Below, piece after piece: positions 32,500 through 63,574 of a stretch of 64,000 bases of DNA. The notes below the pieces were generated by a model. The model was given only the letters and a program-made list of their open reading frames with translations. It searched no databases and was not told where the DNA came from. The translations under genes and the position numbers were made by a program. The DNA is from an uncultured Pelagibacteraceae bacterium (GTDB lineage: Bacteria > Pseudomonadota > Alphaproteobacteria > Pelagibacterales > Pelagibacteraceae): the NCBI GenBank assembly GCA_902557155.1, contig CACDYR010000001.1:62001-126000 (forward strand), in the 5' to 3' direction. Positions within the stretch are counted from its first letter, which is position 1. Each line of letters begins with the position of its first letter.

Positions 32500-33603
32500 T
32501 TATAGAACGTAGGGCTCTGGCCTAGCAGTTTTACCCAAAACTCTCTCAACTGCAAAATCACTTATATCAATTGTTTGGTATGATCCTGTTGTGATTAACT
32601 CAGTTAAGGCTCTACCGATACCTGGTGCCTGCATTAATCCTCGGCCTGTAAATCCAGAAGCCATATAAACATTATCATATTTTGGATGCTTACCAACAAC
32701 TGCATTATTATCTAATCTATTACAATCATAATAACCTGCCCATCCACCAGTTAACTTCAATTCTTCAAAGGCAGGTATTCTCTTAGCAAGAGCTGGCCAA
32801 ACTAATTCCTCAAAATCATTCCAAGCTGGTTCCAAATCATCTGCATCAAATACAGAAATAGGTGATCCTGCTAAATATTCCCCACCCTCTGGTCTCCAAT
32901 AAACACCCGTTGTTAAGTCTCCACTTAGTGGCATCTCTTTTATATATGTTGGGCATTTAACTCTAAACACAGTATGCTTTTGAGGAACAACAGGAATATC
33001 TTCTAACAATTCTTTAGTCCAACAACCAGCCGCCGAAACAATTGTTTTGGCATTTATTTCAGAAATACTTTTTACTTCACCTTTAATAAATTCTGCACCA
33101 AGCTCTATTGCTTTACTTTTAAGAGCGCTGTGAAACATAAATGGATCAATCCATCCTTCACTTTGATTATCCGTATAAGTTGCTGTCTCTATCCCTTCAC
33201 TATTCACATAAGGAAAAACCTTAGATAATTCTGACCCTTTAATATTTTTTGTTCCTGCATCACATTCTTTATGATTTTCTAATGCTCTATATTGTTCTTC
33301 AGCGTGTTCAGAACCAAACATTAAAAGATATCCATTGGTTACCATACTTGCTGTTGGATTAGGATTTTTTTCTGTTTTCAATAATTCTGGTATTTGAAAA
33401 ATAAATTCTCTTGCAAATTTTCCTAATAAAATGTTTTCTTTTTGGAAAAATTGTCTTCTAAAACCACCTAGAGATAATGGGAATGAAGCTGTTTTATAAG
33501 TAGGATCTCTTTCGATAACTTTTACTTTTCTCCCCTCTTTGGATAAAAAATAAGCAGTTGCCGCCCCTATTATTCCACCACCAATTACTACAACATCATC
33601 CAT
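32500..33603 (-). CDS. FAD-dependent oxidoreductase, DAO family
   Basis: A 367-aa flavoprotein with the N-terminal dinucleotide-binding VVIGGGIIGAATAYFLS (5-21) and a following acidic ER residue. It has the DAO-type C-terminal YDCNRLDNNAVVGKHP and MASGFTGRGLMQAPGIGRALTELI. The family oxidises secondary amines such as sarcosine, dimethylglycine and D-amino acids, or acts as heterotetrameric beta subunits. With creatinase 10 kb away, sarcosine is a plausible substrate but not demonstrated. TspO follows upstream on the same strand by 2 bp. Confidence 0.82.
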   Translation of the reverse strand: MDDVVVIGGGIIGAATAYFLSKEGRKVKVIERDPTYKTASFPLSLGGFRRQFFQKENILLGKFAREFIFQIPELLKTEKNPNPTASMVTNGYLLMFGSEHAEEQYRALENHKECDAGTKNIKGSELSKVFPYVNSEGIETATYTDNQSEGWIDPFMFHSALKSKAIELGAEFIKGEVKSISEINAKTIVSAAGCWTKELLEDIPVVPQKHTVFRVKCPTYIKEMPLSGDLTTGVYWRPEGGEYLAGSPISVFDADDLEPAWNDFEELVWPALAKRIPAFEELKLTGGWAGYYDCNRLDNNAVVGKHPKYDNVYMASGFTGRGLMQAPGIGRALTELITTGSYQTIDISDFAVERVLGKTARPEPYVL

Positions 33604-33605
33604 AT

Positions 33606-34088
33606 CTAATTTAACAAAATTAAGCTTGTATTCAGAATTAGTGCAAAGCTACACCAAAGTAAATATGGAATCATTAAGTAGGCACTCAACATCTTGACGC
33701 GTTTAAACCTTAAAATAAGATTAATTATCAATGCTATTAGTATGATTAATACTAGAAGAGCTAAAACCATATTATGGAAAACAAAGAAAACTACACTCCA
33801 AGTTGTATTAAATGCTAAATGAATAAAATAAATATAAACAGTATTCATATCTCTATTTTTTGTATGCCAGTAAAGCCATATCGAAATTGTCATCAATGTA
33901 TACAAGGTGGTCCAAACAGGTCCGAATATCCAATCCGGTGGATTAAATGATGGTTTATTTAGTAATGAGTACCATGGCTCTTTAAATGTAATGGTAGCTA
34001 AACCACCAATCAATGAGGCAGAGAATGTAATAGTAAGAAACAATATAAATGTTAAAAATTTATTTTTAAACATGTTAAATATATACAT
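33606..34088 (-). CDS. tspO: TspO/MBR family membrane protein
   Basis: A 160-aa, five-TM protein with the family features: FKEPWYSLLNKPSFNPPDWIFGPVWTTLYTLMTISIWLYW (about 33-72) and NTTWSVVFF, with tryptophans in the expected positions. TspO binds tetrapyrroles and modulates stress or pigment genes in alphaproteobacteria. An alternative start at Met6 (34073) is possible. The ATG lies only 8 bp from the divergent SDR start, so promoters must overlap coding sequence. Confidence 0.9.
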   Translation of the reverse strand: MYIFNMFKNKFLTFILFLTITFSASLIGGLATITFKEPWYSLLNKPSFNPPDWIFGPVWTTLYTLMTISIWLYWHTKNRDMNTVYIYFIHLAFNTTWSVVFFVFHNMVLALLVLIILIALIINLILRFKRVKMLSAYLMIPYLLWCSFALILNTSLILLN

Positions 34089-34096
34089 AACAAAAA

Positions 34097-34855
34097 ATGA
34101 CTAAAAAAACTATTTGGATTACAGGCGGTAGTACAGGGATTGGTAAAGCTTTAGCGATTAAGTTTGCAAGTAAGGGATGGAATGTTGCTATATCTGCAAG
34201 AAGAGCTGAATTGCTAAATGAGCTTTCAAATTCTTATGAAAATATTTCAGGTTTTCCTTTAGACGTCACAGATAAAGAAAAGTGCAAAGAAGTATTTAAT
34301 GAAATTAAAAACAAATATGAAAATATAGATATTTGTTTTTTTTCAACTGGAACATGGGATCCTAAAAAAGAAAAAGATATAGATGTTGAGCAAATAGAAG
34401 ATGTCTTTAAAGTAAATTTTTTTGGAACTGTGAATAGCATCAAAGCGGTTGAACAATACTTTAGAGATAAAAAAAACGGTATAATTACTGTTGTATCGTC
34501 AATTGCAGGATATAGGGGGTTACCTAATTCAACTGGATATGGACCATCTAAATCTGCGTTAAATAACTTAGCTGAAAGTTTGTACTTTGATTTTAAAAGG
34601 TACAATGTACGTGTTTGTTTAGTATCTCCTGGATTTATAAAAACACCCATGACAGACAAAAATGATTTTAAAATGCCTTTTTTAAAAACTCCTGAGTATG
34701 CTGCGGATCAAATTTATGAAGGTTTAGTTAACAAAAATATATTTGAAATACATTTTCCAAAATCACTTACAATTACATTAAAACTATTGAGTTTTTTACC
34801 GAGTAAAATTTATTTTGGTTTAGTTGGAAAACTAACGAAATATCAAAAAAAATAG
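34097..34855 (+). CDS. Short-chain dehydrogenase/reductase
   Basis: A 252-aa SDR with TGGSTGIGKAL (about 9-19), the catalytic Ser in VVSSIAG (about 136), YGPSKSALNNLAES (Tyr about 149, Lys 153) and PGFIKTPMT. The C-terminal hydrophobic stretch (LTITLKLLSFLPSKIYFGLVG) suggests membrane association. It lies in the cluster SDR/DUF3833/Cfa-like/DUF1365/FAD. Similar SDRs accompany Cfa-like genes in ChrR/RpoE-controlled clusters of other proteobacteria. The substrate is probably a lipid, inferred. Confidence 0.85.
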   Translation: MTKKTIWITGGSTGIGKALAIKFASKGWNVAISARRAELLNELSNSYENISGFPLDVTDKEKCKEVFNEIKNKYENIDICFFSTGTWDPKKEKDIDVEQIEDVFKVNFFGTVNSIKAVEQYFRDKKNGIITVVSSIAGYRGLPNSTGYGPSKSALNNLAESLYFDFKRYNVRVCLVSPGFIKTPMTDKNDFKMPFLKTPEYAADQIYEGLVNKNIFEIHFPKSLTITLKLLSFLPSKIYFGLVGKLTKYQKK

Positions 34856-35416
34856 TTAATCTTTTACAAACACAACTGTCAATTCAGCTACTTTAAAACC
34901 AAATTTAGTCATTGTTGCTCTATTAATTGCAACTCTATCGTCTTGTTTAAAAATCCAATCATCGAAAGTTATTTTTAATTCTTTACCTTTAACCGGAACT
35001 AATAAAACATATTCAAATTTAAACGCTGGACCATAAGAATATCCTTTTGCCTTGCCAACAACATCTCCAGCAGTTCCTTCGTAATTATGCTCATCAATTT
35101 TATTTATTGTCCACTCTCGGTCTTGAATTTCACCATCGTCCCAATTAAATTTTTCTTTAAGAATTAATTGCTTTCCATCCCATGTTCCATTTAAATCTGC
35201 AGAAAATTGTCTTGTAACTTTTCCTGATCTATTTTGTAGAACACCCCAAGCCTTAACATTTCCAGATAAGTATTCCTCAATAATTAATCTTGGTTCTTTG
35301 TTTTTAAAGTCTTCTGGTTTCATAGCGCTATTATTTGAGCAACTTGTAATTAAGAATAATGAAATTATCAATGAAATTGACTTAATTATTTTTATATGTC
35401 GCATAAATATCTCCAT
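34856..35416 (-). CDS. DUF3833 family lipoprotein
   Basis: A 186-aa exported protein. The signal peptide has a lipobox-like end, LIISLFLITSCSNN, with the lipidated Cys at about 26. The mature part matches DUF3833, with PRLIIEEYLSGNVKAWGVLQNRSGKVTRQFSADLNGTWDG and DGEIQDREWTI followed by a long beta-rich segment. Function unknown. DUF3833 proteins occur with Cfa-like genes, as here (5 bp from the Cfa-like gene). Confidence 0.85.
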   Translation of the reverse strand: MEIFMRHIKIIKSISLIISLFLITSCSNNSAMKPEDFKNKEPRLIIEEYLSGNVKAWGVLQNRSGKVTRQFSADLNGTWDGKQLILKEKFNWDDGEIQDREWTINKIDEHNYEGTAGDVVGKAKGYSYGPAFKFEYVLLVPVKGKELKITFDDWIFKQDDRVAINRATMTKFGFKVAELTVVFVKD

Positions 35417-35421
35417 TATTT

Positions 35422-36600
35422 TTATTTGTTTTGCATTGAAAATTGTATCAGATCAATATTTTTTGACTTAAATCCAGCCTCACAATAAGAAAGATAAAAC
35501 TCCCACATTCTTTTAAATGTTAAGTCAAAACCTTGATTTTTTATTAAATCCCATTTTTTTAAAAAATCGTTTCTCCATATCGCCAATGTATTTGCATAAT
35601 GATCAGCATAGGAAATATATGAATTAACAGTTAAACCGTTGTCAGAAACATAACGATTAATGCTATTTTTATTTGGTAAAAAACCACCTGGAAAAATATA
35701 TTTTTGAATAAAATCTTGTTTGTTTTTGTATCTATCAAACAACCTATCATCGATGGTAATTGCTTGAATAGCTGCTTTACCGCCATCAGATAAGTTAGTT
35801 TTAATGGTTTTAAAATAACCCTCTAAATAATTTTGACCAACAGCCTCAATCATCTCTATTGAAGCAATTGAATTGTATTTACCTTTAAGATCTCTGTAAT
35901 CCTTTATTTCAATATTTACTTTTTCGTTTAAACCGCAATTAAAAATTCTTTCTTTTGCATATTCAAATTGTTTTTTTGATATTGTAATACAGTCTAGTTT
36001 AACATCATATTTTTTACCTAAGTACTCAGCAAAACCTCCCCAACCACATCCTATTTCTAAAACTTTGTCACCATTATTTGGTTTAATTAGATCAATTAAT
36101 TTTTGATATTTGTTATTTTGAGCATCAGAAAGATTTTTCGACTTATCATCAAAAATAGCACTAGAGTAAGTGAGTGTGTCATCTAACCAAAGAGAAAAAA
36201 AATCATTGCCTAGATCATAATGTTTAGCAATATTTTCTTTACTTCTGCTTTTTGTATTTTTGATTATTTTATTTTTTACAAAATTAATTATTGGAAAATC
36301 AAGAAGGCCCGAGAATTTATATATAACTTCTATATTTCTTGCAGTTAATTCAATTAAGTTTGATAAGTTATCAGTTTCAAATTCACCTCTCATGTAGCTT
36401 TCGGCAAATCCAATACTGCCACCTCTAATTAAATTATAATTAAAATCTGGTTTTTTGATTGAAATATTTGCATGCAATTTTTCATTCAGATTTCCAAACT
36501 TTAAAACTTTTCCGTCATGTGTAGTCAGCTCTAGATAACCATGATTTATTTTATTAAGAAATTTGAAAACCAATTTATCTGCGGTATTATTTAAAAACAT
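35422..36600 (-). CDS. Cfa-family SAM-dependent fatty-acid methyltransferase (UfaM-like candidate)
   Basis: A 392-aa protein aligned by eye to E. coli Cfa: HYDLGNDFF, the SAM loop LEIGCGWGGFAEYL, DYRDL and YIFPGGFLP. The bicarbonate-site residues differ: E. coli C139 is Ser147 (TYSSAIF), H266 is Gln279 (IQAITI) and Y317 is Arg343 (IWRNDF), while E239 is kept as Glu252. It may therefore methylate an unsaturated acyl chain without forming a cyclopropane, like UfaM of furan-fatty-acid synthesis. It overlaps the DUF1365 gene by 1 bp. Confidence 0.82.
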   Translation of the reverse strand: MFLNNTADKLVFKFLNKINHGYLELTTHDGKVLKFGNLNEKLHANISIKKPDFNYNLIRGGSIGFAESYMRGEFETDNLSNLIELTARNIEVIYKFSGLLDFPIINFVKNKIIKNTKSRSKENIAKHYDLGNDFFSLWLDDTLTYSSAIFDDKSKNLSDAQNNKYQKLIDLIKPNNGDKVLEIGCGWGGFAEYLGKKYDVKLDCITISKKQFEYAKERIFNCGLNEKVNIEIKDYRDLKGKYNSIASIEMIEAVGQNYLEGYFKTIKTNLSDGGKAAIQAITIDDRLFDRYKNKQDFIQKYIFPGGFLPNKNSINRYVSDNGLTVNSYISYADHYANTLAIWRNDFLKKWDLIKNQGFDLTFKRMWEFYLSYCEAGFKSKNIDLIQFSMQNK

Positions 36601-37364
36601 TAATTTTCTACTGTAATATTATTTTTAATTTTAAATTTTTTCTTAATAAATTTAATTCCTTTAATCCACAATTTAAACGCTTCAAAATGTATCGCAGAGA
36701 TAATTTTAAATGTCATTAAAGGGTGTTTAAGATAAGAATTAATCAAGTTTTTGCTTGTCAAATCAGATCTTTCACCATCTTGAGATGCAAAAAGAATTTT
36801 TCCTTCCTGATCATATTGATCAATTACAACTGACAACTTCTGCTCTGGATTTAATATCCTAAAAAAATAATTACAATTCATTTCAATAAATGGTGAAACA
36901 TGAAATTTCTTTGAGCAATTATTTTGAATTAATTTATTTTGTCCCTCTACTTTAAAAACATATGTGTGTTGCTCACCAAATGTATTTTTAACCTCATACA
37001 ATATAGAAATTAAATTATCATTTTTATCGTATACAAAAAAAATACTAAGTGGATTAAAAACATAGCCTAATATTCTTGGATAGCATAAAAGTTTAACTTT
37101 TATGTTGTCTGTATTGATTTCGTTATTAATTAGATTTTTTTTTACCCATTCAAAAAGAGATGAGCCATCACGATCACCATGATCTTTCTCGTAAAAACTA
37201 ATAAGATTAAATTTATTTAATGAAAAAAATTTTAATTTATCATTAAGCTCATCGAGCTCTGATAGATCTATAAATAATGAAAATACTTTATATTTAAAAA
37301 AATGTTCTTTTGGTTTAAATCTCTTATGGATTACATTTCCATTATATATACAAGAACTAATCAT
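36600..37364 (-). CDS. DUF1365 family protein
   Basis: A 254-aa protein recognised as DUF1365 by the N-terminal SCIYNGNVIHKRFKPKEHFFKYKVFSLFIDL and the later YPRILGYVFNPLSIFFVYD, ending in a basic tail. Biochemical function is unknown. It is nearly always next to a FAD amine-oxidase-like protein and a Cfa-like enzyme, as here (8-bp overlap with the FAD gene and 1 bp with Cfa-like), which suggests a shared lipid pathway. Confidence 0.88.
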   Translation of the reverse strand: MISSCIYNGNVIHKRFKPKEHFFKYKVFSLFIDLSELDELNDKLKFFSLNKFNLISFYEKDHGDRDGSSLFEWVKKNLINNEINTDNIKVKLLCYPRILGYVFNPLSIFFVYDKNDNLISILYEVKNTFGEQHTYVFKVEGQNKLIQNNCSKKFHVSPFIEMNCNYFFRILNPEQKLSVVIDQYDQEGKILFASQDGERSDLTSKNLINSYLKHPLMTFKIISAIHFEAFKLWIKGIKFIKKKFKIKNNITVEN

Positions 37365-38595
37365 TAAGGTTTTTCAGCATTTCAATAGATGATTTTATTC
37401 CATCTTCATGAAATCCGTAACCAAAATAACTGCCACAAAAAAGTAAATCTTTTTGATTTTGTATTTTAATAAGCTCTGATTGAGCATCTAATGCTTTTTG
37501 ATCGTAATATGGATGTGTAAATTTTACTTTTCTCAATATTTTTTTCTCATCAATATTGAAGTAAGGATTTAGTGTTAAGAAAATATTTTCATCACACTTT
37601 AAATTTTGTAATAAATTTAACCAGTAGGTTATTGAATTTTTCTCTAAATTCTTGTCATCTATTGACGAATTCCATGAAGACCAAGCTTTTTTATTTTTTG
37701 GCATGGCTCGCTGATCTGTATGTATGTAAGCTATATTTTCCTTGTAGCTAAAATTCGAAAGAATATTTTTCTCATCCACAGTTGGATTTTCAATTAACTT
37801 TAAGGCTTCATCAGCATGCGTTGCCAAAACTACTTTGTCATAATCGAAAAATTCACTTTCTCCACCATAATATAAATCTAATCCTGATGATTTTCTTTTC
37901 ACTCTTGTAACTTTGTAATTTTTGTAATGTTCACCACTTATTTGGGAAAGTATTTTACTAACATAAGTTCTGCTTCTATTGGTTACTGTGTACCACTGCG
38001 GTCTATCTTTCAATTTAAACAAACCATGATTTTGGAAAAATCTAAGAAAGAAACTAATTGGCATCTTGCTAGCTTCATAAGGAGGCATAGACCAAATTGC
38101 AGATACCATTGGTATTATATGATAATCAACAAATGTTTTTGATAATTTATTAATTTTTAAATATTCACCCAAAGTAATTTTATCATTTGATATATTTACT
38201 TGATCACTTTTTTTATAAAATTTAATTATATCAAAAAACATTTTTAAGAACTCTATGTTAAACAAATTTGATTTATTAGAGAAAATTCCACTCAACCCTT
38301 TTCCACAATATTCAAAGTTTGTATTATCTACTGAAACTGAAAAAGACATATTGCTTTTTTCAATTTGAATATCATTTTCCTTAAAAAAATTAATTAAATT
38401 TGGATAAGTTTGAAAATTAAAAACAATAAAACCAATATCTACTAAAACTTTTTTTTCATCAAAAATCAAATCTATTGTATGAGAGTGTCCACCAAAATGA
38501 TCTTCTCGCTCGAAAAGATCTACATGATGTTTTTTAGATAAATAATAAGCAGCACTTAATCCGGAAATACCTGAGCCAACAACAGCAATTTTCAT
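37357..38595 (-). CDS. FAD-dependent amine-oxidase-like protein (UfaD-like candidate)
   Basis: A 412-aa flavoprotein with the FAD motif VVGSGISGLSAAYYLSK (5-21), the following FEREDHFGGHSHT and a C-terminal FCGSYFGYGFHEDGIKSS flavin motif. The family includes protoporphyrinogen oxidases and carotenoid or fatty-acid desaturases. Next to the DUF1365 and Cfa-like genes it resembles UfaD, a flavoprotein desaturase of furan-fatty-acid synthesis in Rhodobacter; that link is from context. It is first in the minus-strand cluster, 6 bp from the gcvP stop side. Confidence 0.82.
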   Translation of the reverse strand: MKIAVVGSGISGLSAAYYLSKKHHVDLFEREDHFGGHSHTIDLIFDEKKVLVDIGFIVFNFQTYPNLINFFKENDIQIEKSNMSFSVSVDNTNFEYCGKGLSGIFSNKSNLFNIEFLKMFFDIIKFYKKSDQVNISNDKITLGEYLKINKLSKTFVDYHIIPMVSAIWSMPPYEASKMPISFFLRFFQNHGLFKLKDRPQWYTVTNRSRTYVSKILSQISGEHYKNYKVTRVKRKSSGLDLYYGGESEFFDYDKVVLATHADEALKLIENPTVDEKNILSNFSYKENIAYIHTDQRAMPKNKKAWSSWNSSIDDKNLEKNSITYWLNLLQNLKCDENIFLTLNPYFNIDEKKILRKVKFTHPYYDQKALDAQSELIKIQNQKDLLFCGSYFGYGFHEDGIKSSIEMLKNLND

Positions 38596-38601
38596 TAATT
38601 A

Positions 38602-41472
38602 TTATGCTGCATCTTCTTTAAACTCATCCATACTTGGACAAGTACAAAAAATATTTTTATCTCCATATACGTTGTCAACTCTTGCAACTGGAGGCCAAAA
38701 TTTATTTGCTTTTAAAAATTTTGCTGGATATGCAGCTTGCTCTCTTGAATATTTATGATTCCATTCATCTGAAGCTAATTCAATATCTGTATGAGGTGCA
38801 TTTTTAATTGGATTATCAACTTTATCAAATTTTCCTGATTTGATCATATCTATTTCTGATTTAATACTAATCAAAGTATCACAAAATCTATCTAGTTCGG
38901 ACAAGCTTTCACTTTCGGTTGGTTCAATCATCATTGTACCTGCTACTGGCCATGACATTGTTGGTGCATGAAAACCATAATCAATCAACCTTTTAGCTAT
39001 ATCTTCTTCGGTGATCCCTGTTTCAGTTTTAATAGATCGAATATCAATTATACATTCATGAGCTACATTTCCGTTTGAACCTTTATAAAGAATTGGGTAA
39101 TGATCTTTAAGTCTATGAGCTATATAATTTGCATTTAATATTGCAACTTGAGTAGCTAATTTTAAACCTTCAGAACCCATCATTTTAATATACATCCATG
39201 AAATTGATAAAATACTTGAACTTCCCCAAGGTGCTGCTGAAACTGCTCCTATTCCTGTAGCAGGTCCACAGTCCTTAACAACAGGATGATTAGGCAAATA
39301 AACTTGTAAATGTCTTTTACATGCAATTGGTCCCATTCCTGGTCCTCCACCACCATGTGGAATACAGAATGTTTTGTGTAAATTTATGTGACAAACATCT
39401 GGACCAAAATTTCCAGGTCTTGCTATACCAACAAGCGCATTTAAATTTGCACCATCCATATAAACTTGGCCACCGTGTTTATGAATTAACTCACATATAT
39501 CTGTAATTTTTTCCTCAAATACTCCGTGAGTAGACGGATAAGTGACCATTAATGCTCCAAGATTTTCAGAATGCATTTCTGCTTTTTTCTTTAAATCCTC
39601 AAAATCAACATTTCCTTCTTTGTCACAATCAACAACGACAACTTTCATTCCTACCATTTGTGCACTAGCAGGATTGGTTCCATGTGCTGAGCTAGGTATT
39701 AAACATATATTTCTGTTTTCTTCGCCTCTATCTAAATGATATTTTCTAATAACCATTAATCCTGCATATTCGCCTTGGGCACCTGCATTTGGTTGAAGCG
39801 AAACACCAGAAAAACCTGTAATTGATCTCAGCCAATTTTTAAGATCAGTGAATAAATCTCTATATCCTTCCATCTGCTCTATAGGCACGAACGGATGAGG
39901 CTCAGCTAATTCTCTCCACGAAATAGGTATCATTTCTGCAGTAGCATTTAATTTCATAGTACATGAACCAAGTGCAATCATAGTTCTATTTAAAGCTATA
40001 TCTTTATCTTCTAACTTTTTTAAATATCTGAGCATCTCAGTTTCTGAGTGATATGAATTAAAAACAGGATGTTCTAAATATTTTGAAGTTCTTAATAAAT
40101 TTTTTGGTAAATTAGGTAAACTTACTGTTGGGTCTTCTTTTTTAATCGACTCAGCTGCATTAAAAATTTTTAGTAATTGATTTACTCTATAAACGTTTTT
40201 CTTTTCATCAAAAGAAACTGCCAACATTTCAGAATTTACTCTTCTAATGTTTACCTTTTGATCCAAAGCATTTTTATAGATTTGATCAGTTTTGTCTTTA
40301 GTAACAATTGTAACCGTATCAAAGAAATGATCTGAATAAATTTCATATCCTGATTGTTTTAATTTGTCTGCAAAGTTTTTAGCTAATTGAGAAACTCTCT
40401 CAGAAATAGTTCGAATACCTTCTGGACCATGATAAATAGCATATGCTGCTGACACAATTGCTAATAAAGCTTGGGCAGTACAAATATTACTTGTAGCCTT
40501 ATCTCTTCTTATATGTTGTTCCCTAGTTTGTAGTGATAATCTATATGCTTTGTTTCCATGCCTATCAACAGATACCCCAACAATTCTTCCAGGCATAGAT
40601 CGTTTGTATTCATCTTTAGTTGCAAAGAAAGCTGCATGAGGTCCACCATAACCCATTGGAATACCAAATCTTTGAGAGCTTCCTACAGCAATATCTGCTC
40701 CAAGTTCTCTTGGTGTTTTTAACTTGGCAAGTGCTAATAAATCACAAGCTAAAATTGCTTTACCATTTTTTTTATGAATTTTACTTATTGCTTCACTAGG
40801 ATTTTTTATATCTCCTAATGTTCCCGGATATTGTAATATACCACAAACTAAATCTTCTTTTAATTGATCTAATACTTTGTCCTCATTGCCAACAAGCACT
40901 TTTAATCCCATCGGTTCCGCTCTTGTTTGAATTACATCTATTGTTTGTGGGTGACAATTTTCAGAAACAAAAACTAAATTATTATCTTTTTTATTTAATC
41001 TATGACTTAATCCCATCGCTTCTGCAGCTGCTGTTCCTTCATCTAATAAAGATGCATTTGCGATATCCATACCTGTAAAATCAACTATCATTTGTTGGAA
41101 ATTAAGCAGCATTTCTAATCTTCCTTGAGCTACCTCGGGTTGATAAGGCGTATAAGAAGTGTACCAACCTGGATTTTCTAAAATATTTCTTAGAATTACA
41201 TATGGTGTATACGTGCCATAATAACCCATCCCTATAAAGTTAGAGTAAATTTGATTTTTTTTCGAAATTGCTTTTAATTTTCTTAATGCTTCGTATTCTG
41301 AATTAGACTCACCAATATTTAATTCATCTTTCAATTGGATCTTTTCTGGAACTGTACTTTTGATTAAATCATCAAGTGATTTGTAATTAAGTTCCTTAAG
41401 CATTTTATTTTGATCTTCATCTGAAGGTCCAATGTGCCTTTTTAAAAAATCTTTTTGAGAATTATGTAACAT
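38602..41472 (-). CDS. gcvP: Glycine dehydrogenase (decarboxylating), single-chain P protein
   Basis: The PLP-dependent decarboxylase of the glycine cleavage system, in single-chain form (956 aa) rather than split GcvPA/PB. It starts FLKRHIGPSDEDQNKML. The PLP lysine is in HINLHKTFCIPHGGGGPGMGP (Lys about 699) and the C-terminal half has EPTESES. It follows gcvH with a 1-bp overlap, so P, H and T are one operon behind the glycine riboswitch. The protein releases CO2 and passes an aminomethyl group to GcvH. Confidence 0.96.
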   Translation of the reverse strand: MLHNSQKDFLKRHIGPSDEDQNKMLKELNYKSLDDLIKSTVPEKIQLKDELNIGESNSEYEALRKLKAISKKNQIYSNFIGMGYYGTYTPYVILRNILENPGWYTSYTPYQPEVAQGRLEMLLNFQQMIVDFTGMDIANASLLDEGTAAAEAMGLSHRLNKKDNNLVFVSENCHPQTIDVIQTRAEPMGLKVLVGNEDKVLDQLKEDLVCGILQYPGTLGDIKNPSEAISKIHKKNGKAILACDLLALAKLKTPRELGADIAVGSSQRFGIPMGYGGPHAAFFATKDEYKRSMPGRIVGVSVDRHGNKAYRLSLQTREQHIRRDKATSNICTAQALLAIVSAAYAIYHGPEGIRTISERVSQLAKNFADKLKQSGYEIYSDHFFDTVTIVTKDKTDQIYKNALDQKVNIRRVNSEMLAVSFDEKKNVYRVNQLLKIFNAAESIKKEDPTVSLPNLPKNLLRTSKYLEHPVFNSYHSETEMLRYLKKLEDKDIALNRTMIALGSCTMKLNATAEMIPISWRELAEPHPFVPIEQMEGYRDLFTDLKNWLRSITGFSGVSLQPNAGAQGEYAGLMVIRKYHLDRGEENRNICLIPSSAHGTNPASAQMVGMKVVVVDCDKEGNVDFEDLKKKAEMHSENLGALMVTYPSTHGVFEEKITDICELIHKHGGQVYMDGANLNALVGIARPGNFGPDVCHINLHKTFCIPHGGGGPGMGPIACKRHLQVYLPNHPVVKDCGPATGIGAVSAAPWGSSSILSISWMYIKMMGSEGLKLATQVAILNANYIAHRLKDHYPILYKGSNGNVAHECIIDIRSIKTETGITEEDIAKRLIDYGFHAPTMSWPVAGTMMIEPTESESLSELDRFCDTLISIKSEIDMIKSGKFDKVDNPIKNAPHTDIELASDEWNHKYSREQAAYPAKFLKANKFWPPVARVDNVYGDKNIFCTCPSMDEFKEDAA

Positions 41473-41852
41473 TAGCTAGCACTCTCCTTTGCAAATTTAT
41501 CGTATTCTTCTTTGTTCATAAGACTATCCATTTCAGATTGATCTTTCATTTTAAGTTTAAAAAACCATGCTGAACCCTCTGGATCTTCATTAATTTTAGA
41601 TGGGTCGTCTACAATAGCTTGGTTTGTATCTACCACCTCACCGCTAACTGGAGTATAAACATCACTAGCGGCTTTCGTAGACTCTACTACTCCTGCAGTA
41701 CCATCTTTTTCAACATTAGATCCTTTTTCAGGAAGTTCTGCAAAAACGATGTCGCCAAGCATTTCTGTTGCATGTTTTGTAATTCCTATTGTAGCTACAT
41801 CTCCCTCCAAAGTAATCCACTCATGTTCTTTAGAAAATTTTACTTCACTCAT
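41472..41852 (-). CDS. gcvH: Glycine cleavage system H protein
   Basis: The 126-aa lipoyl carrier shuttling the aminomethyl group between GcvP and GcvT. It has [20 protein letters not shown] and the lipoylation site [13 protein letters not shown] with Lys60. The length is normal. It overlaps gcvT and gcvP by 1 bp on each side, so translation is likely coupled. Confidence 0.97.
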
Positions 41853-42955
41853 TAATTTACTCCTTTCACATAATTTTTTTTATAAAATGGTAATGCACAA
41901 ACACTTGCTGGATGTTTTTTTCCTCTTACCTCAAGCAAAATTTTAGTATCAACTTTTGAAAACTCTTTATCAACATAACCCATCGCTATAGGACCGTTTA
42001 CACTTGGTCCAAACGTTCCACTAGTTATCTCACCAATTTGTTTATCTGAATCATTAAATATTTTAGTTTTTTCTCTTGCAATCAGTCTACCTTCAGGCTT
42101 AATCCCTACTCTTATTTGACTTGCTCCATCTTGCATTTGGTTCATAATTTTTTTCGATCCAATAAAACCCCCATTTGATAATCTAGATTTTGAGATTGCC
42201 CATCTAAGGTTTGCCTCAACTGGTGTTTTATTAATATCTAATTCGTGACCATATAAACATAATCCAGCTTCTAATCTCAAGGTATCTCTTGCCCCAAGTC
42301 CTATAAGTTGTGCTCCCTTTTTTATTAAATTTTCAACGAATTTTTCAGCTTTATCATTAGAAATTGAAATTTCAAATCCATCTTCCCCTGTATAACCTGA
42401 TCTTGTAACGAATAATTTTTGATTATCAGAATTAAACCAATTTCCTGTCATAAAATTTAGTTGATCAACCCCATTTATAATTGAGTTTAAAATTTCAACA
42501 GACTTAGGTCCTTGAATTGCTATTAATGATCTATTGTTATCTAAATTCATTTTAAATTTCGAACCTAGTAAATTAGATAAAATCTCAAAATCTTTATCTT
42601 TACATGCAGCATTTAAAATAATTAAATACCCTTCTTCTATTTTAGTGATGATTAAATCATCATAAATTCCCGCATCCTCATTCATTAAAAAACTATACTT
42701 AGAGCAATTTTGTTTTAAATTTTTTAAATCTAATGGAAAAATTTTTTCTAATTCATCTGTTAAAGTTTCATCGCCATATATAAATAATTGACCCATATGA
42801 GATACATCAAATATTCCAGAATTCGATCTTGTGAATTTATGTTCTTCAATAATACCTTTGCTATACTGAATAGGCATTTCATAACCAGCGAATTCAACAA
42901 ACTTAGCTTTGTTACTTTGATGAAGTTTATTTAGCGATGTTTTTTTTATTTCCAT
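41852..42955 (-). CDS. gcvT: Glycine cleavage system aminomethyltransferase T protein
   Basis: The T protein transfers the methylene group to tetrahydrofolate and frees ammonia. Recognisable parts are [33 protein letters not shown] (about 184) and [21 protein letters not shown]. The length of 367 aa is normal. It is the first gene downstream of the tandem glycine riboswitch, whose 3' end approaches the ATG; the ATG itself is complementary to a linker segment. The minus-strand gcvT-gcvH-gcvP operon responds to glycine. Confidence 0.96.
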
Positions 42956-43040
42956 ATTAACTCTTCTGTGCCCCCTCTGTCTTGGTGCCTGAGAGATTTG
43001 CTCCTTCGGCGAGAATAATTCTCTTTCCAGAGTTAATATG
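42953..43040 (-). promoter_or_regulatory. Candidate expression platform: start-codon sequestering helix of the glycine riboswitch
   Basis: The RNA linker CAUAUUAACUCU (from bases 43040-43029) is an exact 12-base complement of AGAGUUAAUAUG (42964-42953), which ends with the gcvT start codon. The linker's CUCU is also the 5' strand of aptamer 2 P1, so the two pairings cannot coexist. Glycine binding would form P1 and release the start codon. The pairing is seen; the switching is inferred. Confidence 0.7.
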
Positions 43041-43111
43041 TACGGTCCTTTTGCCTGAGAGTTTCCGGGGTGGTTGCTCCTTCGGCGCTACAAAAGTAGT
43101 CTCTCCCGTGT
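42965..43111 (-). ncRNA. Tandem glycine riboswitch upstream of gcvT
   Basis: Two aptamers are visible on the minus strand. Each has the conserved CGCCGAAGGAGCAA core and a CUCUCAGGC segment: aptamer 1 spans about 43109-43041 and aptamer 2 about 43032-42975. P1 of aptamer 2 is CUCUG (43032-43028) pairing with CAGAG (42979-42975). The region is followed by only about 20 bases before the gcvT ATG, with no terminator poly-U, so control is probably at translation. Glycine riboswitches are known in SAR11 upstream of gcvT. Confidence 0.93.
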
Positions 43112-43116
43112 ATAAA

Positions 43117-43146
43117 TTTATAGCACATTTAAAATGTTTATGTGAA
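43117..43146 (-). promoter_or_regulatory. Candidate promoter of the riboswitch-gcvTHP transcript
   Basis: On the minus strand TTCACA (43146-43141), an 18-base spacer and an extended -10 TGCTATAAA (TATAAA at 43122-43117) predict a start near 43110, exactly at the 5' edge of aptamer 1. The position relative to the aptamer supports the call. Promoter activity is inferred. Confidence 0.5.
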
Positions 43147-43148
43147 AT

Positions 43149-44021
43149 TTATTTAGCTACCTTTTTGACAAGTAATGGTGACAAAAACTGTATAACTACC
43201 GCTGTTATAACTACTGCTCCACCAAAAAGCACTGTAAGTGGTGGGTTTTCGTTTGCAAACATCCATGCCCACAAAGGTCCTAGAACAGCTTCAGTTAACA
43301 TTATGATTCCAACAAATGCTGAAGGCGTTGATCTTGCTCCAATTGTTATAAGTATAAATCCAAGTCCAACTTGAAAAAATCCTGCAATAAAACCTAAAAA
43401 AATATCATTTGTTGAAACCAAAATACTCGGTGACATGAACAAACCTATTAGTGTTGCAAAAATTCCAGCAACCAGTTGCAAAGGTATCATGTCGACTTTT
43501 GGATATTTTCTTACAATTAAAATTAAGATTGCAAATGATATCGGCATAATAAATGCAACAAAGTTTCCAGTCATTTGACCTGGTGTCAGTGAACTTCCCA
43601 ACATTAAAATGATACCAGCTACTGCTGTAATAATGCAAGTTAATGTAATTTTTGAAATTTTTTCTTTTAAAAATACGTAACCAAAAATTGCTAAAAACAA
43701 AGCTTGAGTTTGAATTATGAAGTTTGCATTAGCTACTGTTGTTTCGTACATAGCAAATACATAGCTAGCAAATCCAATGGATAAAATTATACCTCCAAAT
43801 AAACCTGGAATTCCAGATTTATAAAGCGCACTGAAAATTTTTCCTCTGTAAGTAGAGATTAAAAAAATTGTAATTACTCCAATAAAGAAAAGTGATCTCC
43901 AAAATAATATTTGCCAAAGTGTAGATCCATCAAAAGACTTAACAATTAAACCTCCAAAACTTAATGCACAAGCTCCTAAAAAAACTAAAAAAGGGCCCGG
44001 TATTTTTGATAAAAAATTCAT
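43149..44021 (-). CDS. EamA/DMT superfamily permease
   Basis: A 290-aa, about ten-TM permease with WQILFWRSLFFIGV, ETTVANANFIIQTQALFLAIFGYVFLKEKI and GPLWAWMFANENPPLTVLFGGAVV, related to the permeases at 13379 and 22043. It overlaps pxpC by 1 bp (TAATG) in the order pxpB-pxpC-DMT, so it may transport 5-oxoproline, glutamate or a related compound. Its stop is followed by the promoter and riboswitch of gcvT. Confidence 0.85.
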   Translation of the reverse strand: MNFLSKIPGPFLVFLGACALSFGGLIVKSFDGSTLWQILFWRSLFFIGVITIFLISTYRGKIFSALYKSGIPGLFGGIILSIGFASYVFAMYETTVANANFIIQTQALFLAIFGYVFLKEKISKITLTCIITAVAGIILMLGSSLTPGQMTGNFVAFIMPISFAILILIVRKYPKVDMIPLQLVAGIFATLIGLFMSPSILVSTNDIFLGFIAGFFQVGLGFILITIGARSTPSAFVGIIMLTEAVLGPLWAWMFANENPPLTVLFGGAVVITAVVIQFLSPLLVKKVAK

Positions 44022-44965
44022 TAAATTTGTGATAGTAAATTTTGAGTTTCCATCTCATATAACTTAAATAAAGTCTCTGCATCAGATAGATTAATCTCTT
44101 TAAATTTTATTTTTGAACCAGGAGACATCTGAACTAATCGGTCATAATCGACACTAGCCACAACTCCAATTTTTGGATAACCGCCAATAGTACCATGATC
44201 TGAAAGCATTATAATTGGATTTCCGTCTGCCGGTACTTGGATTACACCTTTAATCAAACCCTCTGATTTTATGTTAGTATTCACAATATTATCAATTTTA
44301 GGTCCCTCTAGTCTCATACCCATTCTGTCTGAAAGTTTCGATACTGTAAATTCCTTTTCATAAAATATTTTTTTACCTTCTTCAGAAAAGTAATCAAAAT
44401 TAGTGCCTTTGATCACCCTTATGTTTTCTATTTTGGTATTAATGTAATTAGTTTTTTTAATATCCTTATTTGAATTTATTTTTTTTAAATTAATTCTTTG
44501 CCCTTCATCTAATTTTTTTCCATCATTAGATCCAATATTTGCTTTTGTATTTATAGAGCAACTATTCCATTGGAATTTTAAATCGAACTCTCCACCTAAT
44601 GCTAAATATCCATAAACTGATTTATTTGTAGATATGATATTTATCTCATCTCCATTTTCAATTTGATAACTTTCGTAACATTTGCCCTCAATTTCAGTAT
44701 CTTTTTTTTTAATCGAAAAAATTACATCCCCGGTGACAGCAAAATTAATTTTTTCTCCTGAATATTTTATATGGGGACCTTGATATGCAAACTCTATCAC
44801 TGCAGAATCTAAATTATTATTAACAAGTTTATTGGCTATAAGATAATTTCTATTATCCATAGCGCCGCTAAACGGAATACCAATATGATAAAGATGATCC
44901 CTACCTTTATCTTGAAAGGTGGTATTAATTCCAGGCCTGATTATATCTAGATAATTGCTACTCAT
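44021..44965 (-). CDS. pxpC: 5-oxoprolinase subunit PxpC (KipA family)
   Basis: A 314-aa subunit of the PxpABC 5-oxoprolinase, which converts 5-oxoproline to glutamate with ATP. The family features are IRPGINTTFQDKGRDHLYHIGIPFSGAMDN (about 9-38), FAVTGDVIF, SDRMGMRLEGPKI and IMLSDHGTIGGYPKIGVVASVDYDRLVQ. It overlaps pxpB by 8 bp. Members are often mis-annotated as biotin-dependent or urea carboxylase subunits; the neighbouring PxpA and PxpB settle the assignment. Confidence 0.9.
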   Translation of the reverse strand: MSSNYLDIIRPGINTTFQDKGRDHLYHIGIPFSGAMDNRNYLIANKLVNNNLDSAVIEFAYQGPHIKYSGEKINFAVTGDVIFSIKKKDTEIEGKCYESYQIENGDEINIISTNKSVYGYLALGGEFDLKFQWNSCSINTKANIGSNDGKKLDEGQRINLKKINSNKDIKKTNYINTKIENIRVIKGTNFDYFSEEGKKIFYEKEFTVSKLSDRMGMRLEGPKIDNIVNTNIKSEGLIKGVIQVPADGNPIIMLSDHGTIGGYPKIGVVASVDYDRLVQMSPGSKIKFKEINLSDAETLFKLYEMETQNLLSQI

Positions 44966-45632
44966 TATAATTTTTATACTGATCTAAAGTAATTTCCTTA
45001 AAAATTACTGTGTCTCCTGGGTTTATTAGATTTGGTTTGTCTTCTTTTAAACTATCAAAGACATCTAAAGGTGTGTTTCCTAAAATATTCCATCCACCTG
45101 GACTTTCAAAAGTATAAATGTTTGCAAATTGCTCAGTTAATGCAACAGATCCTTTTGGCACTTTTACTCTTGGGGTTTCTAAACGTTGAGCTCGCATATT
45201 CTCATCTAAGTCACCAAGAAAAGGCATGCCAGCAATAAACCCTGTCATGTAACAAAAATATTCCTTATTTAAAAAATTCTCTAAAATTTTTTCTCTACTT
45301 AATTTTAATATTTCTTCCAATCTTTTAATGTCCATTGAAAAATTTTCATGACAACAAACTGGTATTTCTAATTTTTTTGAATTTATATCTATGGAGTCTT
45401 CGGGATTTATATTTTCAACATAATTTTTTACTTCTTTAAAATTTGTTTTTTTTAGATCATAAGAAATAATTAATTTATTATATGAAGGTGTTAAATTATT
45501 TATCCCTTCAAATTTTTTTTCTTTAATAGTTTTAAAATATTTTATAACTTCTGAATTAATTGATTTATTTACTTCATTACCAAAATCACAGTACAAAGCT
45601 GCGTCACCAAGATTTGATATATTTTTTATCAT
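44958..45632 (-). CDS. pxpB: 5-oxoprolinase subunit PxpB (KipI family)
   Basis: A 224-aa PxpB protein. It has the N-terminal ISNLGDAALYCDFGNEV, LEIPVCCHENFSMDIKRL in the middle and the C-terminal CYMTGFIAGMPFLGDLDENMRAQRLETPRVKVPKGSVALTEQFANIYTFESPGGWNILGNTP block. It overlaps pxpC by 8 bp and diverges from pxpA with about 27 bp between starts. It partners PxpC in ATP-dependent ring opening of 5-oxoproline. Confidence 0.9.
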   Translation of the reverse strand: MIKNISNLGDAALYCDFGNEVNKSINSEVIKYFKTIKEKKFEGINNLTPSYNKLIISYDLKKTNFKEVKNYVENINPEDSIDINSKKLEIPVCCHENFSMDIKRLEEILKLSREKILENFLNKEYFCYMTGFIAGMPFLGDLDENMRAQRLETPRVKVPKGSVALTEQFANIYTFESPGGWNILGNTPLDVFDSLKEDKPNLINPGDTVIFKEITLDQYKNYNE

Positions 45633-45659
45633 GTCATGTTATACTTAACATTAGAGACT

Positions 45660-46433
45660 ATGGAAATTAATATAAATTGCGATTTAGGTGAAAAATCAAA
45701 ACATCATTCAAATAAGCATGATCCAGATTTACTAGAAATAGTTAATTCTGCAAATGTCGCATGCGGTTATCATGCAGGTGATGATGAGTCGATGAATCAA
45801 GTAGTTCAAATTTCAAAAAAAAATGGTGTTAGTATTGGAGCGCATCCGTCATTTAATGACCCTGAAAATTTTGGAAGGCAAAGAATGAAACTTCCACCTA
45901 ATGAGGTAAGGCAATTAATTATTGATCAATATGAAATTCTTCAAAAAATTGCTCAAGATCATGGCGAGAATGTTACTCACATAAAACCACACGGAGCTTT
46001 AAATAATATGGCTTGTGAGGATATAGATTTAGCTACTACTTTAGCAAAAGCTATAAACGAGATTAGTAAAGATTTAATTTATTTGGTTCCTACAGGATCT
46101 AAAATGGAAGAAGCAGCCAAAAAACTAAACATGCGAATAGCTTGTGAAATATTTGCTGACAGGAATTACGAGGATGATGGTAATTTGGTTTCTAGAAAAA
46201 AACCACATGCTCTTATTACTGATCCAGAAGAAGCTAAAAAACACGTATTAAATATGGTTAAAAATCAGTCACTTAATTGTCACAGTGGAAAGCAGATACC
46301 TTGTGAAATAGACTCTGTGTGCATACATGGGGATAATGAAAGTTCATTGTCTACTGCAAAATCAATTAGGGAAAATTTAATAGAAAATGGGCTGCAATTA
46401 AAACCACTTAACCAAATGAAAAAATTTATATGA
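45660..46433 (+). CDS. pxpA: 5-oxoprolinase subunit PxpA (LamB/YcsF family)
   Basis: PxpA is the third subunit of the 5-oxoprolinase. The first conserved block MEININCDLGEKS starts at the ATG at 45660, which I chose over the upstream ATG at 45636 (adds MLYLTLET, with no family match). Other motifs are SANVACGYHAGDD, GAHPSFNDPENFGRQRM, HIKPHGALNN, CEIFADRNYEDDGNLVSR and CIHGDNESS. The shorter form has 257 aa, the family's usual size. pxpA is on the opposite strand from pxpB-pxpC. Confidence 0.92.
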   Translation: MEININCDLGEKSKHHSNKHDPDLLEIVNSANVACGYHAGDDESMNQVVQISKKNGVSIGAHPSFNDPENFGRQRMKLPPNEVRQLIIDQYEILQKIAQDHGENVTHIKPHGALNNMACEDIDLATTLAKAINEISKDLIYLVPTGSKMEEAAKKLNMRIACEIFADRNYEDDGNLVSRKKPHALITDPEEAKKHVLNMVKNQSLNCHSGKQIPCEIDSVCIHGDNESSLSTAKSIRENLIENGLQLKPLNQMKKFI

Positions 46434-63429: not shown

Positions 63430-63574
63430 AATTTTCCTTTATAAATCACTTTAAGACTACTTATTGTAAAAGTTATCCACATGTCCACCAAATGTTGTTT
63501 TCGATGTTCACGTTTTGATTCACTTTTGATTCAATTACGGACTCAAAATACAACCTCTTGAGTGTATTCTATAA
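63430..63574. other. 145-bp intergenic region with a DnaA box and direct repeats
   Basis: The gap between the 64-aa orphan and umuD holds a perfect DnaA box TTATCCACA (63473-63481), two copies of TTTTGATTCA spaced 11 bp apart (63513-63522, 63524-63533) and the start region of umuD. No tRNA or hairpin was found. It probably holds the divergent promoters for the orphan-VOC-GFA-kinase run and umuD. Confidence 0.5.

Follow-up and report, generated by a model that had tools for sequence, protein, structure and literature searches.

The window analyzed here, a stretch of 64,000 nucleotides from a SAR11 genome of the Pelagibacteraceae, very probably contains a complete furan fatty acid operon, which in SAR11 is free of sigmaE-ChrR and is mostly located behind a glycine riboswitch and the gcvTHP genes. 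The enzymes are of a known kind, and what is new is the SAR11 host and the regulatory wiring. Within membranes, furan fatty acids act as quenchers of reactive oxygen. In R. sphaeroides, RSP2144 (UfaM) converts cis-vaccenate into 11Me-12t-18:1, the FAD protein RSP1091 (UfaD) yields 11Me-10t,12t-18:2, and the DUF1365 protein RSP1090 (UfaO) forms the furan using oxygen from O2 (PMC7380195). The R. palustris genes RPA2571-2570-2569, which are ufaD-ufaO-ufaM, are both required and sufficient to make the furan product (PMC7380195). In E. coli, expression of UfaM from a marine Halomonas yielded 11-methyloctadec-12-enoate (PMC12089945). Fish, algae, sponges and a number of marine bacteria are known to contain furan fatty acids (PMC3528120).

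The ORF and domain calls bore out the positions that the original prediction had given for five genes between 34097 and 38595, with the TspO gene located just outside this segment (Table 1). The resemblance of these genes to furan fatty acid and singlet-oxygen clusters, which had also been proposed, was supported by the match of ufaD-ufaO-ufaM, together with the DUF3833 and SDR genes, to a Rhodobacter-type locus. The ufaD gene starts 6 bases past the stop codon of gcvP on the same strand, and the pairs ufaD/ufaO and ufaO/ufaM overlap. Because UfaM, UfaD, UfaO, DUF3833 and SDR are all encoded in the window, it holds the genes of the whole predicted pathway and two conserved genes of the singlet-oxygen regulon.

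Table 1. Features of the ufa locus and its surroundings in the window
Feature	Positions	Strand	Basis
TspO, conserved neighbor within the SAR11 genus	33606-34088	-	PF03073; position kept
SDR, short-chain dehydrogenase, counterpart of RSP1087	34097-34855	+	PF00106; pairs with the SDR at the Cereibacter locus
DUF3833 lipoprotein, counterpart of RSP1088	34856-35416	-	PF12915, E 1.1e-60; pairs with DUF3833 at the Cereibacter locus
ufaM, Cfa-family SAM-dependent acyl methylase, 392 aa	35422-36600	-	PF02353; alignments, signature survey, tree, AlphaFold model
ufaO, DUF1365 protein, predicted O2-dependent furan-forming step	36600-37364	-	PF07103, E 9.5e-79; function of RSP1090/RPA2570 (PMC7380195)
ufaD, FAD amine-oxidase/phytoene-desaturase-like, predicted desaturase of the methylated chain	37357-38595	-	PF13450/PF01593; adjoins ufaO upstream, cf. 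RSP1091/RPA2571
gcvP	38602-41472	-	ORF; adjacency to ufaD kept
gcvH	41472-41852	-	ORF; order kept
gcvT, at the head of the presumed gcv-ufa operon	41852-42955	-	ORF; order kept; SAR11_0666 of HTCC1062 by coordinates
Glycine riboswitch aptamer upstream of gcvT	43033-43118	-	RF00504, 67.4 bits

The closest arrangement is that of R. palustris RPA2571-2568, in which, by description and gene order, the same three enzymes follow each other as in the window, with one further gene behind them (PMC7380195), while the window differs in its streamlined SAR11 host, in the position of ufa behind gcvTHP, and in having no ChrR-sigmaE. The core sigmaE-ChrR regulon of R. sphaeroides (RSP1087-1091 and RSP2144) contains counterparts of UfaD, UfaO, the DUF3833 lipoprotein and SDR, as well as a UfaM. 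In SAR11, however, ufaM lies inside the cluster, which has no equivalent of the GPH symporter RSP1089, the SDR gene is encoded on the other strand, and the sigmaE-ChrR regulators are absent. The genome used as an anchor for this comparison was that of Cereibacter johrii, which is near R. sphaeroides but is not R. sphaeroides 2.4.1 itself, and its ChrR is 95% identical to the R. sphaeroides ChrR in the PDB. Matches to the DUF3833 and SDR genes of the window are found in the Cereibacter locus, and a DUF3833 gene is linked to the ufa cluster in many alphaproteobacteria. The R. sphaeroides operon encodes a GPH symporter (RSP1089), a hypothetical protein (RSP1088) and an SDR (RSP1087; PMC7074977). 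The furan product was unchanged when RSP1087, 1088 or 1089 was deleted (PMC7380195), which suggests that DUF3833 and SDR are probably accessory.

To define the active site of the Cfa-like protein, it was compared with E. coli Cfa in a HMMER alignment, and in a MAFFT alignment of cluster-linked homologues and E. coli Cfa. The alignments confirmed the proposed replacement of C139 by Ser147 and of H266 by Gln279, and the retention of E239 as Glu252. Arg343, which had been taken as the replacement of Y317, was placed in a misaligned column, because E. coli Tyr317 pairs with Tyr335 while Arg343 sits in the column of Tyr325. Two further diagnostic changes, absent from the original prediction, were G236 to Glu249 and H240 to Ala253, so that the UfaM signature residues of the window protein are Ser147, Glu249, Glu252, Ala253, Gln279 and Tyr335. 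The complete set of Cfa bicarbonate ligands (Glu239, His266, Tyr317) is not present in the window UfaM, in which two of the three side-chain ligands, Glu239 and Tyr317, are kept and His266 corresponds to Gln279. Hence, the description of the bicarbonate site as rewritten holds for the replacement of H266, but not for Glu239 and Tyr317, and the changes are a signature of the whole UfaM family, not special to the window protein. The AlphaFold model of this protein had a mean pLDDT of 82.8, and its best matches were CFA synthases, with E of about 4e-31. Overall, the window UfaM shares with E. coli Cfa the fold, the SAM site, Glu239, Tyr317 and Ile268, while it differs in having Ser, Glu, Ala and Gln in place of Cys139, Gly236, His240 and His266.

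The signature was then surveyed in Cfa-family proteins sampled both inside ufa clusters and at other sites of the same alphaproteobacterial genomes, with the UfaM and Cfa types split by column 266 and with the remaining columns and the tree in agreement. All 51 distinct UfaM-type proteins had E/A/Q at columns 236/240/266 (G236E, H240A, H266Q), and their column 139 was Ser, Ala or Gly, but never Cys. All 24 Cfa-type proteins, including those of E. coli, Lactobacillus and Aquifex, had G/H/H at these columns together with Cys139. Each of the columns 236, 240 and 266 separates the two types with zero exceptions, and this three-column pattern is far beyond chance. In a maximum-likelihood tree of 69 rows, the UfaM and Cfa groups were split by a single change with SH-aLRT of 99, and the window protein was in one clade with the UfaM-type protein of Cereibacter johrii, apart from Cfa. 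The latter is the sole Cfa-family protein found in C. johrii; it bears the UfaM signature and groups with UfaM. The genome of the window also encodes a second, canonical Cfa, which is located outside the window (G000:C1:270356-271393). By strong homology, the Cfa-like protein is a UfaM, a predicted non-cyclopropanating acyl methylase. The signature, the tree and the homology of the cluster argue for the earlier proposal that its product would be methylated rather than cyclopropanated.

The MmaA1 mycolate methylase makes a product that is not described as ring-closed. Both MmaA1 and MmaA4/Hma have Glu at the Gly236 column, to which Hma adds Gln at 266, while the ring-closing enzymes CmaA1, PcaA and MmaA2 have Gly at 236 and His at 266. 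MmaA4/Hma and MmaA1 are similar to UfaM in having Glu for Gly236 and in that ring closure is described for neither of them, but they differ in using mycolate-precursor substrates, in having no N-terminal lipid domain, and in their products. A hydroxylated product has been described for Hma, in which Glu146 and Glu149 contact one water (PMC8708032). In E. coli Cfa, Glu239, His266 and Tyr317 bind a bicarbonate that accepts the proton whose removal closes the ring (PMC11387697). The loss of the bicarbonate site, to which the methylated product had been attributed, does not hold as a rule for every methylation that stops short of a ring, since BfaB enzymes retain this site and yet produce a methylene branch (PMC7791843). 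As a general cause it is further weakened by UmaA and MmaA1, in which His266 is kept. UmaA has both Gly236 and His266, which leaves Glu236 short of a complete rule as well. It could be that the extra carboxylate, Glu249, redirects deprotonation to the neighboring chain carbon, and since UmaA and BfaB show other routes we offer this as a hypothesis.

We infer that in SAR11 UfaM would catalyze SAM-dependent methylation of cis-vaccenoyl chains in membrane phospholipids, and that the carbocation would lose a neighboring proton in place of ring closure, giving 11-methyl-12-trans-18:1. The Glu249 that replaces Gly, Gln279 and the loss of Cys139 would probably steer deprotonation away from the cyclopropane. 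UfaD would desaturate this chain to the 10,12-diene, into which UfaO would insert O2-derived oxygen, and the resulting methyl furan fatty acid could scavenge singlet oxygen and radicals in the membrane. Photoprotection of SAR11 by furan lipids would be plausible.

The distribution of the gene set was followed by DUF1365. With one weak match counted, DUF1365 was present in 161 of 194 genomes of the SAR11 order with at least 88% completeness and in 10 of 11 SAR11 genera, while among the alphaproteobacterial genera sampled it was found in 102 of 190. Wherever the surroundings of SAR11 loci were inspected, ufaD, ufaO and ufaM were side by side. By this measure, the furan fatty acid gene set is near-universal in SAR11, including HTCC1062. 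The assignment of genome G489 (1,308,759 bases) to Candidatus Pelagibacter ubique HTCC1062 rests on the match of coordinates, as its riboswitch and gcvT are exactly at the positions published for HTCC1062 (intergenic region 649763-649953; PMC2704228). This genome bears the same ufa locus as the window, with UfaM, UfaD and UfaO encoded together in both, which makes the cultured strain open to a direct test. No SAR11 lipid data with a furan or an 11-methyl chain were found in the open-access literature, and a mention in subscription journals is possible. In the open-access search, furan fatty acids and SAR11 were named together in one paper, in which SAR11 appears once.

Three other explanations of the locus were weighed against the furan fatty acid pathway. 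It is very unlikely that the window protein still acts as an ordinary cyclopropane fatty acid synthase whose active-site residues have drifted. Such a role would agree with its PF02353 membership, with the CFA fold and with the two bicarbonate ligands kept, and in the Halomonas study E. coli with UfaM is reported to have contained cyclic fatty acids as well (PMC12089945). However, the perfect UfaM signature is common to a large clade, which in the tree is apart from all Cfa, and the same genome has its own canonical Cfa. The adjoining genes of a Cfa homologue and a FAD protein are also the Bfa layout (PMC7791843), which could suggest a BfaAB-type 10-methyl (tuberculostearate-like) pathway, where methylation is followed by reduction of the methylene group by the FAD protein. 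This explanation is highly improbable given that BfaB retains the bicarbonate site (PMC7791843) while the window protein has the UfaM signature, that the FAD protein is amine-oxidase/phytoene-desaturase-like, and that a DUF1365 gene of the UfaO family is present in a conserved order.

It is also unlikely that UfaM is functional while UfaD or UfaO has taken on another role, so that the product would be a methylated or diunsaturated chain with no furan. The low identity of SAR11 UfaO to its Cereibacter homologues (about 30%) would allow for such a change, as would the fold search for a cofactor with the UfaO model, in which no PDB match was found at E up to 0.001, the only similarities being weak ones to lipocalin-like barrels. 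On the other hand, SAR11 UfaO retains the residues that are invariant across 30 sequences, Cereibacter homologues included, which are His13, Arg15, Pro96, Phe103, Pro105, Asn127, Thr128, Tyr135, Lys152, Val156-Phe159, Tyr166, His226 and others. The presence of DUF1365 in nearly all SAR11 genera and the grouping of ufaD, ufaO and ufaM in the inspected loci also speak against a changed role, and for the complete furan fatty acid pathway.

To learn how the operon could be controlled, the regulators of the singlet-oxygen response were searched for, as the original prediction had suggested for ChrR/RpoE sites. ChrR (TIGR02451) was found in none of 13 genomes of the SAR11 family of the window. Of 25 other alphaproteobacteria bearing the cluster, 21 gave a ChrR match above the cut-off and two more gave one below it. 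One weak ChrR match, with a stop codon, was seen in another SAR11 family. The ECF11 RpoE query matched in none of 13 SAR11 genomes, and it matched in the five other alphaproteobacterial genomes. The motif TGATC-N17-20-TAAGA, which we take to be a form of the sigmaE promoter, was absent upstream of ufaD on its strand, and the whole window holds three occurrences versus one expected. Hence, the search gave neither the regulators in the SAR11 genomes tested nor a sigmaE site upstream of ufaD, and SAR11, unlike other cluster-bearing alphaproteobacteria, is without ChrR and the ECF sigma factor.

The comparison of upstream regions showed that gcvTHP is directly before ufaD in 24 of 34 loci of the genus with upstream sequence, while EamA is in this position in the other 10. 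The RF00504 riboswitch was present in all 23 gcv-linked loci of the genus with complete upstream sequence. The gcv link also occurs in six further loci of the genus, among them that of HTCC1062, and in three from two sister genera, and in other SAR11 genera the ufa genes are at other locations. Searches of the ten EamA-type genomes gave no gcvP and no glycine riboswitch at any site. Most of these genomes are incomplete, but their congeners readily show both. Thus, these ten relatives lost gcvP and the riboswitch and kept ufa, which shows that the gcv link is dispensable. Scans for sigma-70 promoters and terminators gave no excess over shuffled sequences, and promoter-like sites in gcvP occurred at chance frequency. 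In most of the genus gcvP and ufaD are separated by just a few bases. This spacing, 6 bases in the window, and the shared strand suggest that in most of the genus ufa is probably transcribed by read-through from the glycine-riboswitch gcvTHP promoter. A study of in situ transcripts describes reads that extend from a SAR11 glycine riboswitch into gcvT (PMC5069720), and the upstream end of the presumed gcv-ufa operon is thus active in the sea. This is the riboswitch-gcvT locus described before (Tripp 2009; PMC2704228; PMC5069720), with coordinates matching HTCC1062 exactly, and the available parts of these sources do not mention the downstream furan fatty acid genes.

With the three-residue signature, annotators can tell apart UfaM and Cfa, two types that are combined in family models like PF02353. 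The locus is also a case of rewiring, in which genes that elsewhere belong to a dedicated light-stress circuit outlive the loss of this circuit in genome streamlining, mostly behind a glycine riboswitch. We tentatively raise the possibility that furan fatty acid synthesis in SAR11 is either constitutive or controlled by the glycine riboswitch, which would couple the one-carbon supply from glycine cleavage to SAM-dependent lipid methylation with no singlet-oxygen sensor. If this were true, SAR11, the most abundant marine heterotrophs, would be a major, unrecognized source of marine furan fatty acids. The near-universal presence of the predicted pathway in SAR11, cultured HTCC1062 included, makes the question of where marine furan fatty acids come from directly testable.

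The predicted structure of UfaO, the DUF1365 protein expected to form the furan ring (model m0c41a47b2895; pLDDT 85.8, good confidence), consists of a beta-rich barrel followed by C-terminal helices, and its comparison with the PDB gave no significant match. His13, His226, Glu124 and Tyr135 are the conserved candidates for binding a cofactor.

The gene directly ahead of ufaD is EamA in ten SAR11 members of the genus (L230-L235, L237, L240, L251, L252), and no gcvP and no glycine riboswitch turned up anywhere in these ten genomes; glycine cleavage appears to have been lost in a lineage-specific manner. In the window, an FAD-dependent oxidoreductase of the DAO family adjoins TspO, and this position is kept across SAR11. 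A chrR-ufa locus of Rhodobacterales type was also observed within CP059262.1 (L147), a record entitled Exiguobacterium profundum; this organism title is probably erroneous. The SAR11_0636 sRNA, which lies elsewhere in the window, is a marker of Pelagibacter.

Coordinates of the features discussed
Feature	Position	Strand	Remarks
DAO-family FAD-dependent oxidoreductase	window 32500-33603	(-)	weak resemblance to ThiO/sarcosine oxidase, falling short of the NCBIfam cut-offs given
UfaO (DUF1365)	window 36600-37364	(-)	
Three 5-oxoprolinase-like ORFs	window 44021-46433	PxpC, PxpB (-), PxpA (+)	resemblance by eye only
SAR11_0636 sRNA (RF01827)	window 63465-63555	(-)	89.3 bits
Second Cfa-family gene (L199)	G000:C1:270356-271393		window's genome, outside the window; signature C-G-E-H-H-I-Y

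The second Cfa of the window's genome carries the canonical signature, and such a second Cfa was found in two further genomes of the genus. Hence, SAR11 may produce cyclopropane fatty acids in addition to furan ones.
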